DNA of 64,000 bases from Deltaproteobacteria bacterium (GTDB taxonomy: Bacteria > Myxococcota_A > Polyangia > Polyangiales > Polyangiaceae), in the NCBI GenBank assembly GCA_016875405.1, contig VGRJ01000008.1, forward strand, positions 1 to 64,000, written 5' to 3'. Position numbers and translations under genes: made by a program. This document shows positions 7,367 through 17,862 of this stretch, in pieces. How positions within the stretch are numbered: position 1 is the stretch's first letter; every line of letters begins with the position of its first letter. The notes under the pieces were generated by a model. It was given only the letters and a program-made list of their open reading frames with translations, was not told the DNA's origin and ran no database searches.

Positions 7367-7900
7367 TCAGCGCGGCGCGGCGAAGGTGAGCCGGGCTTCA
7401 ACCTCGACCTCGTCGGCGACCTTGAACGCTCCGAACGGCGCCCTCACCTCTCTGCAGCCGAGCTTCGCGAGCGACAGGCGCGCGCGCCCCTCGACCGAGC
7501 GCTCGTCGCTGTCGGTTGGGGCCATGCGGAGCGCGACCGACGTCGTCTCGGCGCCGCGAGACGCCGTGACGGTGAGCCTCGCGAGCCGAAGGTCTCCGCT
7601 CCCCGCAACTCGAAGCTCGCCGCCCGCGAACACCTCGCTCCGAATTCTTCGCTCGATCTCCTGAACGTCGCGCGCCGACAAGACACCCTTGTCGACTGCG
7701 CCGCGTCTCCATACGCCGACGACGCGGACACCCGCGACGGGGAAGGTGAACTCGGCGCGCCAGGCAGGGCCGTCTTCATCGACCCACCCCGACGCACCCG
7801 TCGCCTCGAGCTCGAGGTCGTGAGCGAGCCTCGCGAGCGGCCCTACCGCGCGCGTTCGAACCTTCACCGATGAACGCGCGGTGACGAGGGCCCTTCGCAT
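7367..7900 (-). CDS. YceI-like domain protein
   Basis: 177 residues with no signal peptide. The pattern RAVGPLARLAHDLEL near the start, LTVTASRG in the middle and an FGAFKVADEVEVEARLTF end resemble the YceI lipocalin-like barrel, which binds isoprenoid-type lipids in characterised members. YceI proteins are often periplasmic, whereas this one looks cytoplasmic. An inverted repeat (GCATGCC, 8-base spacer, GGCATGC; 7897-7918) spans its start codon. It is convergent with the CxxCH lipoprotein gene. Confidence 0.65.
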   Translation of the reverse strand: MRRALVTARSSVKVRTRAVGPLARLAHDLELEATGASGWVDEDGPAWRAEFTFPVAGVRVVGVWRRGAVDKGVLSARDVQEIERRIRSEVFAGGELRVAGSGDLRLARLTVTASRGAETTSVALRMAPTDSDERSVEGRARLSLAKLGCREVRAPFGAFKVADEVEVEARLTFAAPR

Positions 7901-7949: not shown

Positions 7950-9443
<1,494 letters not shown>

Positions 9444-9452
9444 CGTCGACAG

Positions 9453-9499
9453 AGGTTACGCGATGACTCGCGGAGCTGCGAGCGAATCGCTGTTAACCT
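9453..9499. promoter_or_regulatory. Divergent -10 elements, both TAACCT
   Basis: TAACCT on the minus strand (9458-9453) is 9 bases before the DUF362 ATG. TAACCT on the plus strand (9494-9499) is 6 bases before the GTG of the GH57 gene. I see no convincing -35 for either. Both transcripts would have almost no leader. The same hexamer precedes the genes at 643 and 17969. Confidence 0.5.
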
Positions 9500-9505
9500 C
9501 TTGGT

Positions 9506-11947
9506 GTGAAGCCTGCGCTGATCATCCACGGCCACTTTTATCAGCCACCGCGCGAGAACCCCTGGACCGGCATGGTCGATCGGGAGCCGGGAGCCGCACC
9601 GTTCCACGACTGGAACGCGCGGATCCATCACGAGTGCTACCGCCCGAACGGGCACGCGCGCATTTACGACGACGCCGGCGCGGTGCTCGCGATCGTCAAC
9701 AACTACCGGCGGATGAGCTTCAACGTCGGCCCGACCCTCGCGAGCTGGCTCGAGGAGCACGAGCCGCCGACCTACCGCCGCATCCTCGATGCCGATCGCG
9801 CGAGCGTCGCCGAGCACGGCGGACACGGGAACGCGCTGGCGCAAGCGTACAACCACGCGATCCTCCCGCTGATGAACGACCGCGATCTGCGGACACAGCT
9901 CCGTTGGGGGCACGCGGACTTCAAGCATCGGTTCGGTCGCGACGCCGAGGGGATGTGGCTGCCCGAGACCGCCTGCGATCGTCGGACGCTCGCAGCGCTC
10001 ATCGACGAGGGGATGCGCTTTGCGATCCTCGCCCCGGGCCAGGCCGCGCGCGTCAAAGACGGCGACCGCTGGCGCGACGTCCACGCGATCGATCCGCGTC
10101 GACCTTACCGATTCATGCACCCCGATGGCTCGGGGCGCTCGCTGGCGCTCTTCTTTTACGACGGCGCGGTGTCGCTCGCGATCGCGTTCGAGGGCCTCCT
10201 CACGTCGAGCCGCGCCTTCGTCGACAGGCTCGAGCGGGCGTCGGGTGGGCCGGGGACGCTCGTGCACGCGGTGACGGACGGAGAGAGCTACGGGCACCAC
10301 CACCGCCACGGCGAACGCTGCCTCGCGTACGCGCTCACCACGGAAGCCCCGCGCCGCGGCTTCTGGGTCACGAACTACGGCGAGCTGCTCGACCACCTCC
10401 CGCCGCGCGAGGAGGTCGACATCGCGCTCGGCCCAGACGGACGCGGGAGCTCGTGGAGCTGCGCGCACGGCGTGGGCCGCTGGTACCGCGACTGCGGCTG
10501 CCACACCGGCGGCAAGCACGGGTGGAACCAGCGTTGGCGGACGCCGCTGAGGCTCGCCCTCGACCTCTTGCGCGACGAGGCCGCGCGCTTCTATGAGGAT
10601 GCAGGCGGAGCGCTGTGCGCCGATCCGTGGGCGCTCCGCGACGAGTACGCGGCGTTGCTCTGCGACAGGCGCGCCGATCGCGCGGCGTTCCTCGACCGAC
10701 ACGGCGTGAGTGCGCACGTCGAAGAGACGAGGACGCGCGCGCTGGCCCTGCTCGAGCAGCAGCGGAGCGCGATGACGATGTACACGAGCTGCGGCTGGTT
10801 CTTCAGCGACGTCGCCGGGCTCGAGGCGGTCCAGGTGCTGCGCTACGCCGGGCGCCTCGTCGACCAGCTGAGAGCGTCGGGCGCGCCGGATCCGGAGCCA
10901 CGCTTCCTCGAGGTGCTCGCGGAGGCGCAAAGCAATCACGCCGAGCGAGGGAGCGGGGCGGATCTCTATCGGGAGGCCGTCCGCGGCTCACGGACCACAC
11001 CCGCGCGTCTCGCCGCGCACGTCAGCATGCGGCGCTTCGTCGGCGACGGGGATGCGACGGCACGGGCGGGGCATCAGCGCGTCGCCGTCGAGTCCGAGCG
11101 AGCCGAAGAGGGGGGGCGCATGCGGCTCGGCCTGTCGAAGCTCGTCTTGACGGACGAGGCGACGGGCGAGGCCGCGTCGTTCGCGTGCTGTGCAATGCAC
11201 TTCGGCGGCATCGACCTGCACTGCCTCGTCAAGCCTTACCCCGGAGCCGCGGCGTTCGACGCGGCCAGCGAGCGGATCGCGACTGCCGTCAGGTCGGGCA
11301 GCCTGCTCACGGCGCTGCGCGTCGCGCAGGAGGAGCTCGGCCCCGACGCATTCGGCATCGAGCACGTCCTACCGAACGAGCGGGAGGCCCTGTCGAATGC
11401 GCTCTTCGCGGAGCTGCGCGAGAGCTACGGCGCCCACTTCGAGGCGATGCTTCGCGACAGCCAGGCGACGATCGCGTCGTTTCGCGAGGCAGGGCTTCCG
11501 GTGCCCCCGGAGCTGCGCGCCGCGGCCGAGCTGGCGCTCGCGAGGCGCTTCGACGAAGCGCTGTCGGCGCTCCCCGGCGCGGAGCTGGACGACACCTCCT
11601 ACCGCGCGGCCCTCAGCGTCGCGGAGCTCGCGCGCGCGCTCGGATGCAAGGTGTCGACGGACGAGACGCGGCGCAAGCTCGAGGCCACCCTGCTCCATCA
11701 GCTGCGCCGACTCGCCGCCGGCGAGGAGCGCTCCGAGCGAACCGGCGCCGTCTCACCGCTTCGGGCCGCGCTCGCGGTGTTCGAGCTCGCGAGTCGGCTC
11801 GGGGTCGAGCTCGAGCTCGAGCGGGCGCAAGAGGTCGTCTACGAGGCGCTCGTCGAGCGAGCGACCGTCGACGATGGCGCGCTCCAGCTCGCGGACGCGC
11901 TGAACCTGTCGCGCGAGCTCGCCCAGGCCGCTCCTCGCCGCGGCTGA
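9506..11947 (+). CDS. Glycoside hydrolase family 57 protein with DUF3536 domain
   Basis: 813 residues from a GTG. The N-terminal domain is GH57: HGHFYQPPRENPW at the start, FNVGPTLASWLE, and the conserved region GMWLPETACD, whose Glu is the likely nucleophile. A DUF3536 domain occupies roughly residues 480-800. GH57 enzymes act on alpha-glucans (amylase, branching enzyme or 4-alpha-glucanotransferase), so a role in glycogen or maltodextrin metabolism is likely; the exact reaction cannot be read from the sequence. No signal peptide, so cytoplasmic. Confidence 0.92.
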   Translation: MKPALIIHGHFYQPPRENPWTGMVDREPGAAPFHDWNARIHHECYRPNGHARIYDDAGAVLAIVNNYRRMSFNVGPTLASWLEEHEPPTYRRILDADRASVAEHGGHGNALAQAYNHAILPLMNDRDLRTQLRWGHADFKHRFGRDAEGMWLPETACDRRTLAALIDEGMRFAILAPGQAARVKDGDRWRDVHAIDPRRPYRFMHPDGSGRSLALFFYDGAVSLAIAFEGLLTSSRAFVDRLERASGGPGTLVHAVTDGESYGHHHRHGERCLAYALTTEAPRRGFWVTNYGELLDHLPPREEVDIALGPDGRGSSWSCAHGVGRWYRDCGCHTGGKHGWNQRWRTPLRLALDLLRDEAARFYEDAGGALCADPWALRDEYAALLCDRRADRAAFLDRHGVSAHVEETRTRALALLEQQRSAMTMYTSCGWFFSDVAGLEAVQVLRYAGRLVDQLRASGAPDPEPRFLEVLAEAQSNHAERGSGADLYREAVRGSRTTPARLAAHVSMRRFVGDGDATARAGHQRVAVESERAEEGGRMRLGLSKLVLTDEATGEAASFACCAMHFGGIDLHCLVKPYPGAAAFDAASERIATAVRSGSLLTALRVAQEELGPDAFGIEHVLPNEREALSNALFAELRESYGAHFEAMLRDSQATIASFREAGLPVPPELRAAAELALARRFDEALSALPGAELDDTSYRAALSVAELARALGCKVSTDETRRKLEATLLHQLRRLAAGEERSERTGAVSPLRAALAVFELASRLGVELELERAQEVVYEALVERATVDDGALQLADALNLSRELAQAAPRRG

Positions 11948-13930: not shown

Positions 13931-15577
13931 GTGAACTTCTTCGCTCCTCTGCTCCCGAGGGATCCCATCCTCGCCGATCCGTCGAGCCCGCTCGACGCAC
14001 GACTCCGCTGTGGCGCAATGAGCTGGGTCGAGGACGGCTTTGGGGCCCCCGTCGTGGTCTACCTGTTCTACCTCCTGAAGGTCGTCCTTTACGTGGGCGG
14101 GTTCGTGCTGTGCTGCGCGCCGTCGACCGCGCACCATGCTCAGCTCGCATGGGCAATGGGTCCAGTCGCTTTCCAGAAGGCGGTGGTCTGGAGCGCGGTC
14201 TTCGAGGTCCTTGGGCTCGGCTGCGGCAGCGGCCCCCTTACGGGTCGCTACCTTCCGCCGCTCGGGGGTGTGCTCCACTTCATTCGACGCGGAACGCCGA
14301 AGCGAGCGCCCTGGCCCAGCCTCCCGATCGTGGGAGGCGACCGGCGGGGCGTCGTCGATGTTGGGGTCTTCGTCGCCTTCGTCGCCCTCGCCGCGGCCGT
14401 GCTCGCAGCACCCGCTCCGTCACGCGGCCTGCTCGCCGCCCTGCTCGGAGCCTGGGTCATCATGTCTCTCTGCGACTCGACGCTCTTCCTCGCGGCGCGA
14501 AGCGAACACTACGCGGTCCTCGTCGCGTGCTTCATCTTGTCCGACGAGTGGCTGATGGGCGCGCGCGGCGTCGCACTCGCGCTGTGGACGTGGGCCGGCG
14601 TCTCGAAGCTCAACGCGCACTTCCCCTACGTCGTGTCGGTGATGGCGAGCAACAGCCCGCTTGTCCCGCGGATGCTTCGACGTCGGTTGGTGCGACGCTA
14701 CCCCGAGGATCTTCGCCCCTCCGGGCTCGCGCGGGCGATGGCGCACCTCGGCGCGGGGCTCGAGCTCGCCGTGCCATTCGCGTTCATCATGGCGCGGACG
14801 CCAACGCAGCTGACCGTCGCGTTCGGACTGATGCTCGCGCTCCACGCATTCATCATCGGCAGCGTGCCGCTCGGCGTGCCGCTCGAGTGGAACGTGATGG
14901 TCGTGTACCAGGGTTTCGTCCTCTTCGGGGCGAACCGAGCGCTGAGCTGGTCCTGGCCGCCGCCGCTCACGCTCGCGCTGCTGCTCGTCGCGTGCGTCGC
15001 CGTTCCACTCGCAGGCAACCTTGGGCCCGCGCACGTGTCGTTCCTGCCGTCGATGCGCTACTACGCGGGCAACTGGGCGTGCTCGGCGTGGCTCTTCCGT
15101 GGGGAGAGCTATCGCAAGCTTCACGCCTCGCTCACGCTCCCGACGCCATGGGTGGGCGATCAGCTTGCTCGCCTTTACCCCGAGGCCGTAGGGCGCGCCG
15201 TGCTCGCGAAGGCCCTCGCGTTTCGGGCGATGCACCTCCACGGCCGCGCGCTCGTCGCGCTCGCGCCGCGCGCCGCCAGCGACGTCGACACGCGCACTTG
15301 GCTCGATGGGGAGCTCGTATGCGGGATGACGCTCGGCTGGAACTTCGGGGACGGACACCTCCACGACGAGCGCCTCGTCGCCTCGCTTCAGCGCTCGTGC
15401 GGGTTCGGGCCCGGCGAGCTTCGCTGCGTGATGGTCGAGTCCCAGCCGCTCTTCGGGGACTCGCTCGCCTACCGCATCGTCGACGCGGCGACCGGCCCGG
15501 TCGAGCGAGGACAGCTCCCAATCGTCGCGCTCCTCGAGCGCCAACCGTGGGGCGAGCCGGTCACTCCGAAGTCTTGA
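13931..15577 (+). CDS. DUF3556 multi-pass membrane protein
   Basis: 548 residues from a GTG, 26 bases after the TetR gene. Hydrophobic helices are spread over residues 35-380. Features I associate with DUF3556 proteins of mycobacteria are present: GFGAPVVVYLFYLLKVVLY near the start, FEVLGLGCGSGPL, SKLNAHFPYVVSVMASN and GVPLEWNVMV. A soluble C-terminal part of about 150 residues follows. The function of the family is unknown. The linkage to an alkylsulfatase-like enzyme and a TetR repressor suggests handling of a hydrophobic compound or lipid (inference). Confidence 0.8.
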   Translation: MNFFAPLLPRDPILADPSSPLDARLRCGAMSWVEDGFGAPVVVYLFYLLKVVLYVGGFVLCCAPSTAHHAQLAWAMGPVAFQKAVVWSAVFEVLGLGCGSGPLTGRYLPPLGGVLHFIRRGTPKRAPWPSLPIVGGDRRGVVDVGVFVAFVALAAAVLAAPAPSRGLLAALLGAWVIMSLCDSTLFLAARSEHYAVLVACFILSDEWLMGARGVALALWTWAGVSKLNAHFPYVVSVMASNSPLVPRMLRRRLVRRYPEDLRPSGLARAMAHLGAGLELAVPFAFIMARTPTQLTVAFGLMLALHAFIIGSVPLGVPLEWNVMVVYQGFVLFGANRALSWSWPPPLTLALLLVACVAVPLAGNLGPAHVSFLPSMRYYAGNWACSAWLFRGESYRKLHASLTLPTPWVGDQLARLYPEAVGRAVLAKALAFRAMHLHGRALVALAPRAASDVDTRTWLDGELVCGMTLGWNFGDGHLHDERLVASLQRSCGFGPGELRCVMVESQPLFGDSLAYRIVDAATGPVERGQLPIVALLERQPWGEPVTPKS

Positions 15578-16244
15578 GGAGCGCGCAGCCGAGCGCGACG
15601 AAGGCGATGGTAGCGAGCGCGATCGAGCTCGCGCGCTGCGAGAGCGCTGCGACGAGAGGTCCGCCCGCGAGGCTCGAGAGGTGGGCGCGCGGCCAGGGAA
15701 GGGCGAGGATCGACACGCCGCTGCCAAACAGATAGTCGAGGACCAGCACCGCGAAGCGACCGCGCGTCGGACGACGCACCGACGAGCCGAGGACGAGGGC
15801 CGCTCCGTACGCAAGCGCGCCGAGACCGAGCGTCCACATCGCACGCGCCGCCTCTGCGTTCGCACTCGAGCGAGACGGCGCAGCGAGGACGACCCCGACG
15901 ACGAGACCCGGGGCGACCACCGCCCAGGTCGCGCCGAGGCTAGCGAGCGAGGCGCCGACCCCGAGCGCCCGACGCGAGTGTCCGAAGCGAGCCGCGGGCC
16001 AGAGCGCCTCGGAGAAGCTCGAGCCGGTCATGACGCGCTCGAGCGCCGCCCACGTGACGAGCGGGAGCACCGCTCCGTAGAACGCGGCGAGCACCGCATC
16101 GACGGCACCGAGCGGGCTCGAGCGTCGCACAAGGAGCGCGAGCGCGCTCGACAGGATCGTTACGCACGCGGCGACGAGCAGACACCATCGGGCCCCGAGC
16201 CGCGACACCGCGAGCGTCACGCCGACGCGGACGGCTCGGATCAT
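15561..16244 (-). CDS. ABC-type permease-like membrane protein
   Basis: 227 residues from the ATG at 16244, which overlaps the stop of the ATPase-like gene (ATGA). About six hydrophobic segments, for example ARWCLLVAACVTILSSALAL and later Ala/Gly/Leu-rich helices. It resembles permease subunits encoded next to ABC ATPases, but I cannot name a family. Last gene of a three-gene translationally coupled set. Its 3' end overlaps that of the convergent DUF3556 gene by 17 bases. Confidence 0.65.
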   Translation of the reverse strand: MIRAVRVGVTLAVSRLGARWCLLVAACVTILSSALALLVRRSSPLGAVDAVLAAFYGAVLPLVTWAALERVMTGSSFSEALWPAARFGHSRRALGVGASLASLGATWAVVAPGLVVGVVLAAPSRSSANAEAARAMWTLGLGALAYGAALVLGSSVRRPTRGRFAVLVLDYLFGSGVSILALPWPRAHLSSLAGGPLVAALSQRASSIALATIAFVALGCALLKTSE

Positions 16245-17209
16245 CGAGAGCCTCCGGACGGGCTCGTCACCTCGTGCGACGCCTGCGCGCTTCGCCTCGC
16301 GATCAGGCGAACGTCGAGGTTCAATTCCGCACCGATCGCCGTGACCGCGTGCGCGACCTCGTCGATGGCCTGCGACTCGATGCGAACGCGACGGAGTCGA
16401 GGCTCGCCCTCGGAGGCATGCCAGCTCGCGCCACCGTGGGGGACTGCCCGCTTCGCGAGCTCGTAGAGGAGCGCAGCCGCGCGGTCGCCGTCGGGGTCCC
16501 AGAGAACGACCTCGAGTCCGTACGCCGTCGCGCGCAGCCATCCCTCGGCGATCTCGGGAGGGACAAGGCGGCCTCCGTCGAGGAAGCGCGGCGTGACCGC
16601 GAGCCCGTGCGCGTCGGCGGGAGCGCTGGCGAGGATGACGACGGGGATGCGGGTCGCGCGCTCCTGGAGGGCCTCGCGAACGAGCACGGGATCCAGAGCG
16701 CCGACGAGCGTCGACGGCTCGTAGAGGACCACGAGCTCGGGCGTCGGGTGCGAGACCGCGAAGACGAGCTCGACCGCGCGCTGCTCGGACGTCGACAGGC
16801 GGTCGACCTCGCGCTCGCGCTGTGCGCCGAGGCCGAACCGGACCAGCCCCTCGAGGAGCGCATCGGGGTGCGGGGACACCTGCGCGGCGTCTCGAACGCG
16901 GCGGCCGAGGAGGCATGGAGCGGGGCCGAGCGAGGCGATCCCTCGGCGCACGGGCGCCGAGCTCCACGGCGCGCGCCCACCGACGAGCAAGATGCCACGC
17001 ATCGGTCGCGCCGCGCCGACGAGGACGGCCCAGAGCGCCGCGAGACCATCCGCAGGTGTGCCGACGACGACATGCATGCCCGCCTCGAGGTCGCACGAGA
17101 CCCCGACGAGGCGACCGAGAGCGCCGCCCCTCGTCCCGAGCGCGTCCAGAGCATGCACGTTTCGGAGACTCACCTCCGCACGCGTCGCGTCAGACGCTCC
17201 GGGGCTCAT
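16241..17209 (-). CDS. ABC ATPase-like protein with degenerate catalytic motifs
   Basis: 322 residues from the ATG at 17209. The order of elements follows an ABC ATPase, but every catalytic motif is altered. The Walker A position reads GTPADGLAAL (no Lys, no Ser/Thr), the signature LSTSEQRA replaces LSGGQ, Walker B reads LVVLYEP (Asp replaced by Tyr), and the switch region reads LASAPAD with no His. About 90 extra residues follow. I infer a pseudo-ATPase that cannot hydrolyse ATP by the normal mechanism. It is coupled by ATGA overlaps to permease-like proteins on both sides. Confidence 0.7.
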   Translation of the reverse strand: MSPGASDATRAEVSLRNVHALDALGTRGGALGRLVGVSCDLEAGMHVVVGTPADGLAALWAVLVGAARPMRGILLVGGRAPWSSAPVRRGIASLGPAPCLLGRRVRDAAQVSPHPDALLEGLVRFGLGAQREREVDRLSTSEQRAVELVFAVSHPTPELVVLYEPSTLVGALDPVLVREALQERATRIPVVILASAPADAHGLAVTPRFLDGGRLVPPEIAEGWLRATAYGLEVVLWDPDGDRAAALLYELAKRAVPHGGASWHASEGEPRLRRVRIESQAIDEVAHAVTAIGAELNLDVRLIARRSAQASHEVTSPSGGSR

Positions 17210-17862
17210 GGCGCTCCTCCGACAAAGGCCAACGCTGTCCAGACGCGGCCGAGCAGCGACGGGATCGCCCACCAGACGCCGACCGCCGAAGGCACAGCGA
17301 TCGCCGCGACGACGACGAGCCCCGCACGGCGCCGCGAGACGGCGCCCGCGGCGACGGCGAGCCCCCCGAAGAGCAAGGCCGCGAAGGCGCCGAACGCGAG
17401 GCACGGCACGAAGACCTTCGCGGAGGCGAGCCGGCGCGTCTCGCCCATCACCCATAAGCTCACGCCGAGCGCGAACATGCTGAACCGAAGGGCGATCTCG
17501 AGCACCGCTGCCGCAAACTCCGCAACGACGAGGTTCGCCGGACTCGCACCTCGCGACGCGAGGAGCCATGCGAGCCCGCTGGTCTCGCCGCGGGACAGTC
17601 GTGCCGACGTGGCCGCGACCGCGACCGCTCCGCCTCCGAGGAGCGCCACGCCTTGAATGGCTCCGCCGATCGAAGCCATGAGCGCGTCGGCCGCGTGCAC
17701 CGACCCCGAAGGCGAGGATTCAGAGGCGAGCAGCGCAAGCGGAAGCGCGACGGCGAGCCAGCCGAGCCGAGCCCACCACGAGCGGGCAATCACCTCGCGA
17801 CAAAGCGCGAGGCGCGCCCATTGGGCTCTCCATGGGAGCGCGCGTTCGGTCGCCGTCGACAC
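17206..17862 (-). CDS. ABC-type permease-like membrane protein
   Basis: 218 residues with about six hydrophobic segments, such as LGWLAVALPLALLA near residue 35 and LALLFGG-type helices later. Its stop overlaps the ATG of the pseudo-ATPase gene. Together the three genes read as permease, ATPase-like, permease, the layout of a small ABC exporter. The substrate is unknown. First gene of the set; the 106-base space to the divergent gene at 17969 shows no clear minus-strand promoter. Confidence 0.65.
   Translation of the reverse strand: MSTATERALPWRAQWARLALCREVIARSWWARLGWLAVALPLALLASESSPSGSVHAADALMASIGGAIQGVALLGGGAVAVAATSARLSRGETSGLAWLLASRGASPANLVVAEFAAAVLEIALRFSMFALGVSLWVMGETRRLASAKVFVPCLAFGAFAALLFGGLAVAAGAVSRRRAGLVVVAAIAVPSAVGVWWAIPSLLGRVWTALAFVGGAP

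Follow-up and report, generated by a model that had tools for sequence, protein, structure and literature searches.

A conserved gene triad of Polyangiaceae couples a motif-degenerate homologue of ABC ATPases to two permease-like proteins

Degenerate ATP sites are well known among ABC proteins and are normally paired with an intact site. Where a heterodimeric exporter has a degenerate site, its other site is intact and is built with the signature motif of the partner (PMC12038006; PMC4046567). Here we describe a triad of genes from Polyangiaceae that codes for a pseudo-ATPase (P2) between two permease-like proteins (P1 and P3). As in the heterodimeric exporters TM287/288, BmrCD, and MsRv1273c/72c, a catalytically degenerate nucleotide-binding domain (NBD) is kept by selection. 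These exporters, however, keep one consensus site, whereas the only NBD of the triad has lost Walker A, the Walker B Asp, and the signature together. A literature search, with most subscription journals outside its reach, returned no account of the triad operon, nor any of an ABC system with a pseudo-ATPase in bacteria.

The ABC-2 exporters with DrrA/GldA/NosF-like ATPases resemble the triad in their permease-ATPase-permease order. Operons of this type in related families (e.g. loci L084, L082, and L218-L231) also share with it stop/start overlaps (in many of them), a homologous P1, and an ATPase with the ABC fold and a C-terminal domain. Their ATPases carry GPNGSGK[ST]T, SRGMRQR, LLDEP, and STH, whereas in P2 of the triad the Glu alone is left of the catalytic motifs. 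In the NosDFY system, NosF was matched by the P2 profile, and the P3 profile weakly found NosY beside NosF at L128 and L129 (E 8e-5 and 1e-4 per genome). The triad differs from NosDFY in that neither NosD nor other nos genes were found near it, and NosF of L128 and L129 is motif-intact.

The window, a stretch of 64,000 nucleotides, belongs to a genome of 5.0 Mb in 218 contigs (family Polyangiaceae, order Polyangiales). Translation of the window gave three consecutive open reading frames on the minus strand at 15561-17862. P1 (17206..17862, 218 aa, GTG start) is a permease-like subunit and a distant relative of ABC2_membrane_2. P2 (16241..17209, 322 aa) consists of a degenerate NBD and a C-terminal domain, as assigned from its profile and a table of motifs. 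P3 (15561..16244, 227 aa), also permease-like, is the most conserved marker of the triad. The first-pass annotation had described the middle protein as joined to two permease-like proteins by 4-base overlaps, and both overlaps were found, between P1 and P2 at 17206..17209 and between P2 and P3 at 16241..16244 (minus strand). Among 76 homologous triads the in-frame 4-base overlap was present between P1 and P2 in 71 and between P2 and P3 in 58, thus the coupling in the window is not a matter of chance. A gene for a DUF3556 membrane protein (13931-15577; Pfam E 1.5e-165) runs towards P3 from the opposite direction, and the two share 17 bases at the 3' end of P3.

P3 was found in 86 of 108 Polyangiaceae genomes, in 50 of the 61 genomes of good quality, and in 42 of 48 genera, nearly always as a single copy, and it was almost absent from the rest of the phylum sample. 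The three genes had the same strand and order in 75/76 complete triads. The single exception, L160, had a weak P1 match of 40 residues at a contig end. Together with the mostly maintained overlaps, this order upholds the earlier proposal that the set is kept together. The dN/dS of P2 in close pairs was 0.14-0.47, with similar values for P1 and P3, and P2 is under purifying selection. P2 and P3 were found in one open frame in L050 (G027) and L132 (G062), while in L071 (G014, 8776-10263) P3 carried an N-terminal stretch corresponding to a much reduced P2 in which a P-loop could not be recognised. These genomes are metagenome or draft assemblies, in which each fusion alone would be questionable; three were seen. 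A P1-P2 fusion considered in L217 was rejected, for the 3' part of P1 was out of frame.

Ordinary annotation would overlook P2 as an ABC ATPase. P1, P2, and P3 of the window had no Pfam match when searched as single sequences, and single-sequence searches against Pfam, NCBIfam, and PDB gave nothing useful. A search of the host genome with ABC_tran returned 56 other matches and missed P2. Four P2 homologues from related genomes passed the ABC_tran gathering score, and a profile of 27 P2 sequences matched ABC domains in the PDB, with ABCA3 as the best (E 8e-43), followed by ABCA7 (E 1e-41) and NosF (E 2e-29). The HHpred-type comparison that had been proposed for P2 therefore yielded a strong match to the ABC fold. 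When P2 was compared with the motif-intact ATPases at L084 and L082, the alignment extended over 282 columns and included the C-terminal domain (E 9e-28). The ABC_tran superfamily fold was thus recognised in the P2 family profile and in the four homologues, but not in P2 of the window by itself. Because homologues exceed the gathering score and the profile reaches ABC domains of known structure, the assignment is not a chance one, and by its sequence relationships P2 is an ABC ATPase by descent. Structure prediction from ten sequences produced poor models (mean pLDDT 53); in a Foldseek search with the P2 model, ABC ATPases (MetN, ABCA, and NosF) ranked at the top with low TM-scores, which lends weak support. 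The best-predicted part (pLDDT 74-86) was the C-terminal beta-alpha-beta-beta-alpha-beta domain (residues 231-305; 16295..16519, minus strand), which also aligns with the intact relatives.

The elements of an ABC ATPase follow one another along P2 in the expected sequence, as had been read from the window, and all lie on the minus strand. GTPADGLAAL (residues 50-59; 17033..17062) stands for GxxGxGK[ST]TL of Walker A and contains neither the Lys nor the Ser/Thr; the consensus of the P2 family at this place is GxPxDGTxAL. RLSTSEQRAVE (residues 137-147; 16769..16801) replaces the signature LSGGQxQRV. In ELVVLYEPS (residues 158-166; 16712..16738), which corresponds to hhhhDEP of Walker B, the Asp is changed to Tyr and the catalytic Glu164 is retained. 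In VVILASAPADA (residues 190-200; 16610..16642), which corresponds to hhxxTH of the switch region, the His is changed to Ser. The first-pass annotation had listed losses of the Walker A Lys and Ser/Thr, LSGGQ, the Walker B Asp, and the switch His, and every one of them is present. Beyond that list, the Asp of the D-loop is gone, and E164, the catalytic Glu that follows Walker B, is retained.

We counted the motifs in 78 P2s of Polyangiaceae with a readable Walker A. The Walker A Lys was present in 0/78; its position was occupied by Thr in 41, Leu in 9, Ala in 9, and others in the rest. The fifth position of the loop was Asp in 64/78, and the loop Gly was likewise present in 64/78. The Walker B Asp, absent from the window copy, was found in 10/78, while the catalytic Glu was found in 73/78, with Asp instead in 4. 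None of the 78 had an LSGGQ-type signature, for which the consensus was L-S-x-x-E-x-R, and the position of the switch His was Ser or Ala in most. Columns that shape the fold (G44, G50, G65, P69, G72, G78, G213, and P165) were conserved at 0.82-1.00, whereas columns that contact the nucleotide (K56, S/T57, Q-loop 96, S139-G141, D163, D170, and H195) were not conserved. As a control, ABC ATPases from the host genome were aligned to the profile used for P2, and 30/30 had the Walker A Lys. L127 and L071 had no recognisable P2 loop at all. When genomes were searched for the degenerate pattern, broad alignments were without success and a narrow alignment worked. The degenerate motifs are therefore conserved in orthologous triads across the Polyangiaceae, the result for which a homologue search had been suggested, and the motif loss of P2 is not a private decay of the window copy.

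A search of the Polyangiales with the P1 profile led to intact counterparts. Sixteen genomes, all from other families of this order, had P1, an ATPase, and a second permease in the same arrangement, with intact ATPase motifs (GPNGSGK[ST]T, SRGMRQR, LLDEPL, and STH). The ATPases of the L218-L231 and L082 operons were 62-99% identical to that of L084. In L084, P1 matched Pfam ABC2_membrane_2, and the permeases belong to the ABC-2 families of Pfam. P1 of the triad was homologous to P1 of the intact operons by profile comparison (E 1e-11, 97%). P3 has 5-6 hydrophobic helices and was predicted with low confidence to be a helical membrane protein; it is less securely assigned to the ABC-2 permeases than P1 is. 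Direct profile comparison of P3 with ABC-2 permeases was marginal, and that with the P3 set of the intact operons was not significant. The P3 profile did match an ABC-2 permease at L244 (G128:C165) with E 4e-7, and the same permease was matched by the P3 profile of the intact operons with E 6e-12. This L244 permease bridges P3 and the intact permease family.

The last gene of the intact operon (L218-L231, L082, and L084) is c56, a conserved gene of about 212 aa. This downstream gene (212 aa) was considered as a marker of intact copies in Polyangiaceae and was rejected as too unspecific. The second permease of the intact operon had a convincing match in only 1/108 Polyangiaceae genomes, G128. 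At L244 this genome has an extra ABC-2 set with two intact ATPases, and an ordinary triad is present elsewhere in the same genome.

The surroundings of the triad fall into three gene contexts. In context A, a gene of the c7 family (161-190 aa) lies directly downstream of the triad, together with a DUF362 protein; in context B a response regulator is downstream; and in context C there is a divergent membrane protein, a degenerate sigma-54-activator AAA+. The differences among these contexts leave the triad alone as the conserved unit, and an ABC ATPase conserved beside it was found in none of the three. Context A is also that of the window, where inserted genes separate P3 from c7; the c7-family gene of the window (7367..7867, minus strand) lies about 7.7 kb from P3 and may be an associate, by synteny only. 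In many relatives c7 is directly downstream of P3 on the same strand, with 57% mean column identity, and it had no match in Pfam or PDB. The membrane protein divergent from P1, about 750 aa long (L069:11566-13881 and about 20 loci of the family), is degenerate as a sigma-54-activator-type AAA+: its profile matched NtrC/FleQ domains (E 2e-14), with APSGVDPVPYIARAHL in place of Walker A. It is a second pseudo-ATPase adjoining the pseudo-ABC triad.

We propose, with a probability of about 0.6, that P1 and P3 form an ABC-2-type transmembrane pair to which P2 contributes a non-hydrolysing pseudo-NBD, and that the resulting complex is controlled by a ligand or a partner. P2, the sole NBD homologue encoded, would keep the fold and the docking to the membrane subunits and would have lost canonical ATP binding and hydrolysis; judging from its motifs, it is most likely a docking or regulatory subunit of the P1-P3 membrane complex. 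ATP would then provide no power stroke for the complex, which would most likely serve as a scaffold, gate, or sensor. A ligand or a partner protein would set its state through P2, and candidate sites for this action are the remodelled GxPxDGT loop, the retained Glu, and the C-terminal domain. The P2-P3 fusions support a contact between these two proteins. Genomes with the fusion could not form a classical P1-P3-(P2)2 complex, so there would be either a P3-P2 homodimer or a docking site on P1 that is empty or occupied by a foreign domain. The strong conservation of the Glu counts against the pseudo-NBD account, because a purely structural subunit does not need it; conservation of Glu164 and of the DG of the loop would be left unexplained by a purely structural role and would be explained by ligand sensing.

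The same residues could point to another possibility, that P2 binds a nucleotide or another phosphate ligand in a non-canonical way through the GxPxDGT loop and the Glu, as a ligand-gated switch or an unusual hydrolase. The composition of the loop is not random: its Asp and its Gly each occur in 64/78, Thr takes the place of the Lys in 41/78, and the Glu is kept in 73/78. Nevertheless, the Q-loop, the D-loop, and the switch His are gone as well, and L127 and L071 do without a recognisable loop, thus we regard this reading as unlikely. We are just as doubtful that P2 pairs, as the degenerate partner, with an active NBD from another locus, in a heterodimer that would keep the transporter driven by ATP. 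The host genome does hold dozens of other ABC domains (the 56 matches above), heterodimeric exporters commonly have one degenerate site per transporter (PMC12038006; PMC4046567), and where P2 and P3 are fused, another NBD could dock at the vacant P1 side of a P1:P2-P3 pair. However, P2 has lost its own signature too and so would have none to offer, in the normal manner, for the site of an unlinked partner, and no ABC ATPase adjoins the triad as a conserved neighbour in the three contexts. The first-pass annotation had left a choice between a set that works without ATP hydrolysis and one served by an ATPase from elsewhere; the lost signature and the missing linked ATPase lead us to favour the former, as far as motifs can tell.

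Less probable than either is a membrane complex of different descent that took up an ABC-like domain, in which P1 and P3 would not be ABC permeases. The lack of Pfam matches for P1 and P3 and the marginal profile links of P3 to ABC-2 permeases would fit such an origin, but P1 is homologous to P1 of the intact ABC-2 operons, the gene order equals theirs, and the L244 permease is common to the P3 profile and its intact counterpart. The least probable reading is that the triad is what remains of an ABC transporter in decay. The high divergence of P2 and its strong reduction in L071 would fit this; nevertheless, the order is kept in 75/76 triads with overlaps in most, the genes are under purifying selection, and the marker of the triad was found across 42/48 genera. 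We rejected this reading, which is contradicted by dN/dS, gene order, and overlaps.

The pseudo-NBD account, which we prefer, also bears on the history of the triad. In family f8, a P1 relative was found in three genomes: G050 had a complete divergent triad with a P2 lacking the P-loop, G479 had a P2 with AAPDDGSPLA, and in G043 P2 was cut by a contig end. In a tree of NBDs, the group without the Lys formed one clade (support 0.71-0.77) and was not placed next to the intact operon, and long-branch attraction is likely in this tree. The intact homologues, present in other families as a whole conserved operon, likely represent the ancestral state rather than a recent decay. The simplest history would be that an ABC-2 exporter was turned into a pseudo-ATPase complex a single time, long ago, before f8 and the Polyangiaceae diverged.

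What is new here is that the one NBD whose gene accompanies those of the permeases has undergone a fixed loss of catalytic motifs across a family, while related families hold an intact counterpart. In 78/78 readable genomes a single catalytic motif is left in P2 while selection persisted, and the intact operon of the same order in related families provides a natural before-and-after pair. On this pair one can test what an NBD contributes to the transmembrane subunits besides burning ATP. As a tentative view, held with less confidence than the account of P2 itself, an ancestor of the Polyangiaceae and a sister family may have converted an ABC-2 exporter once into a membrane complex independent of ATP hydrolysis, in which a pseudo-NBD whose GxPxDGT loop is newly conserved and whose Glu is retained would read a different signal, so that the family would possess an "ABC transporter without an ATPase".
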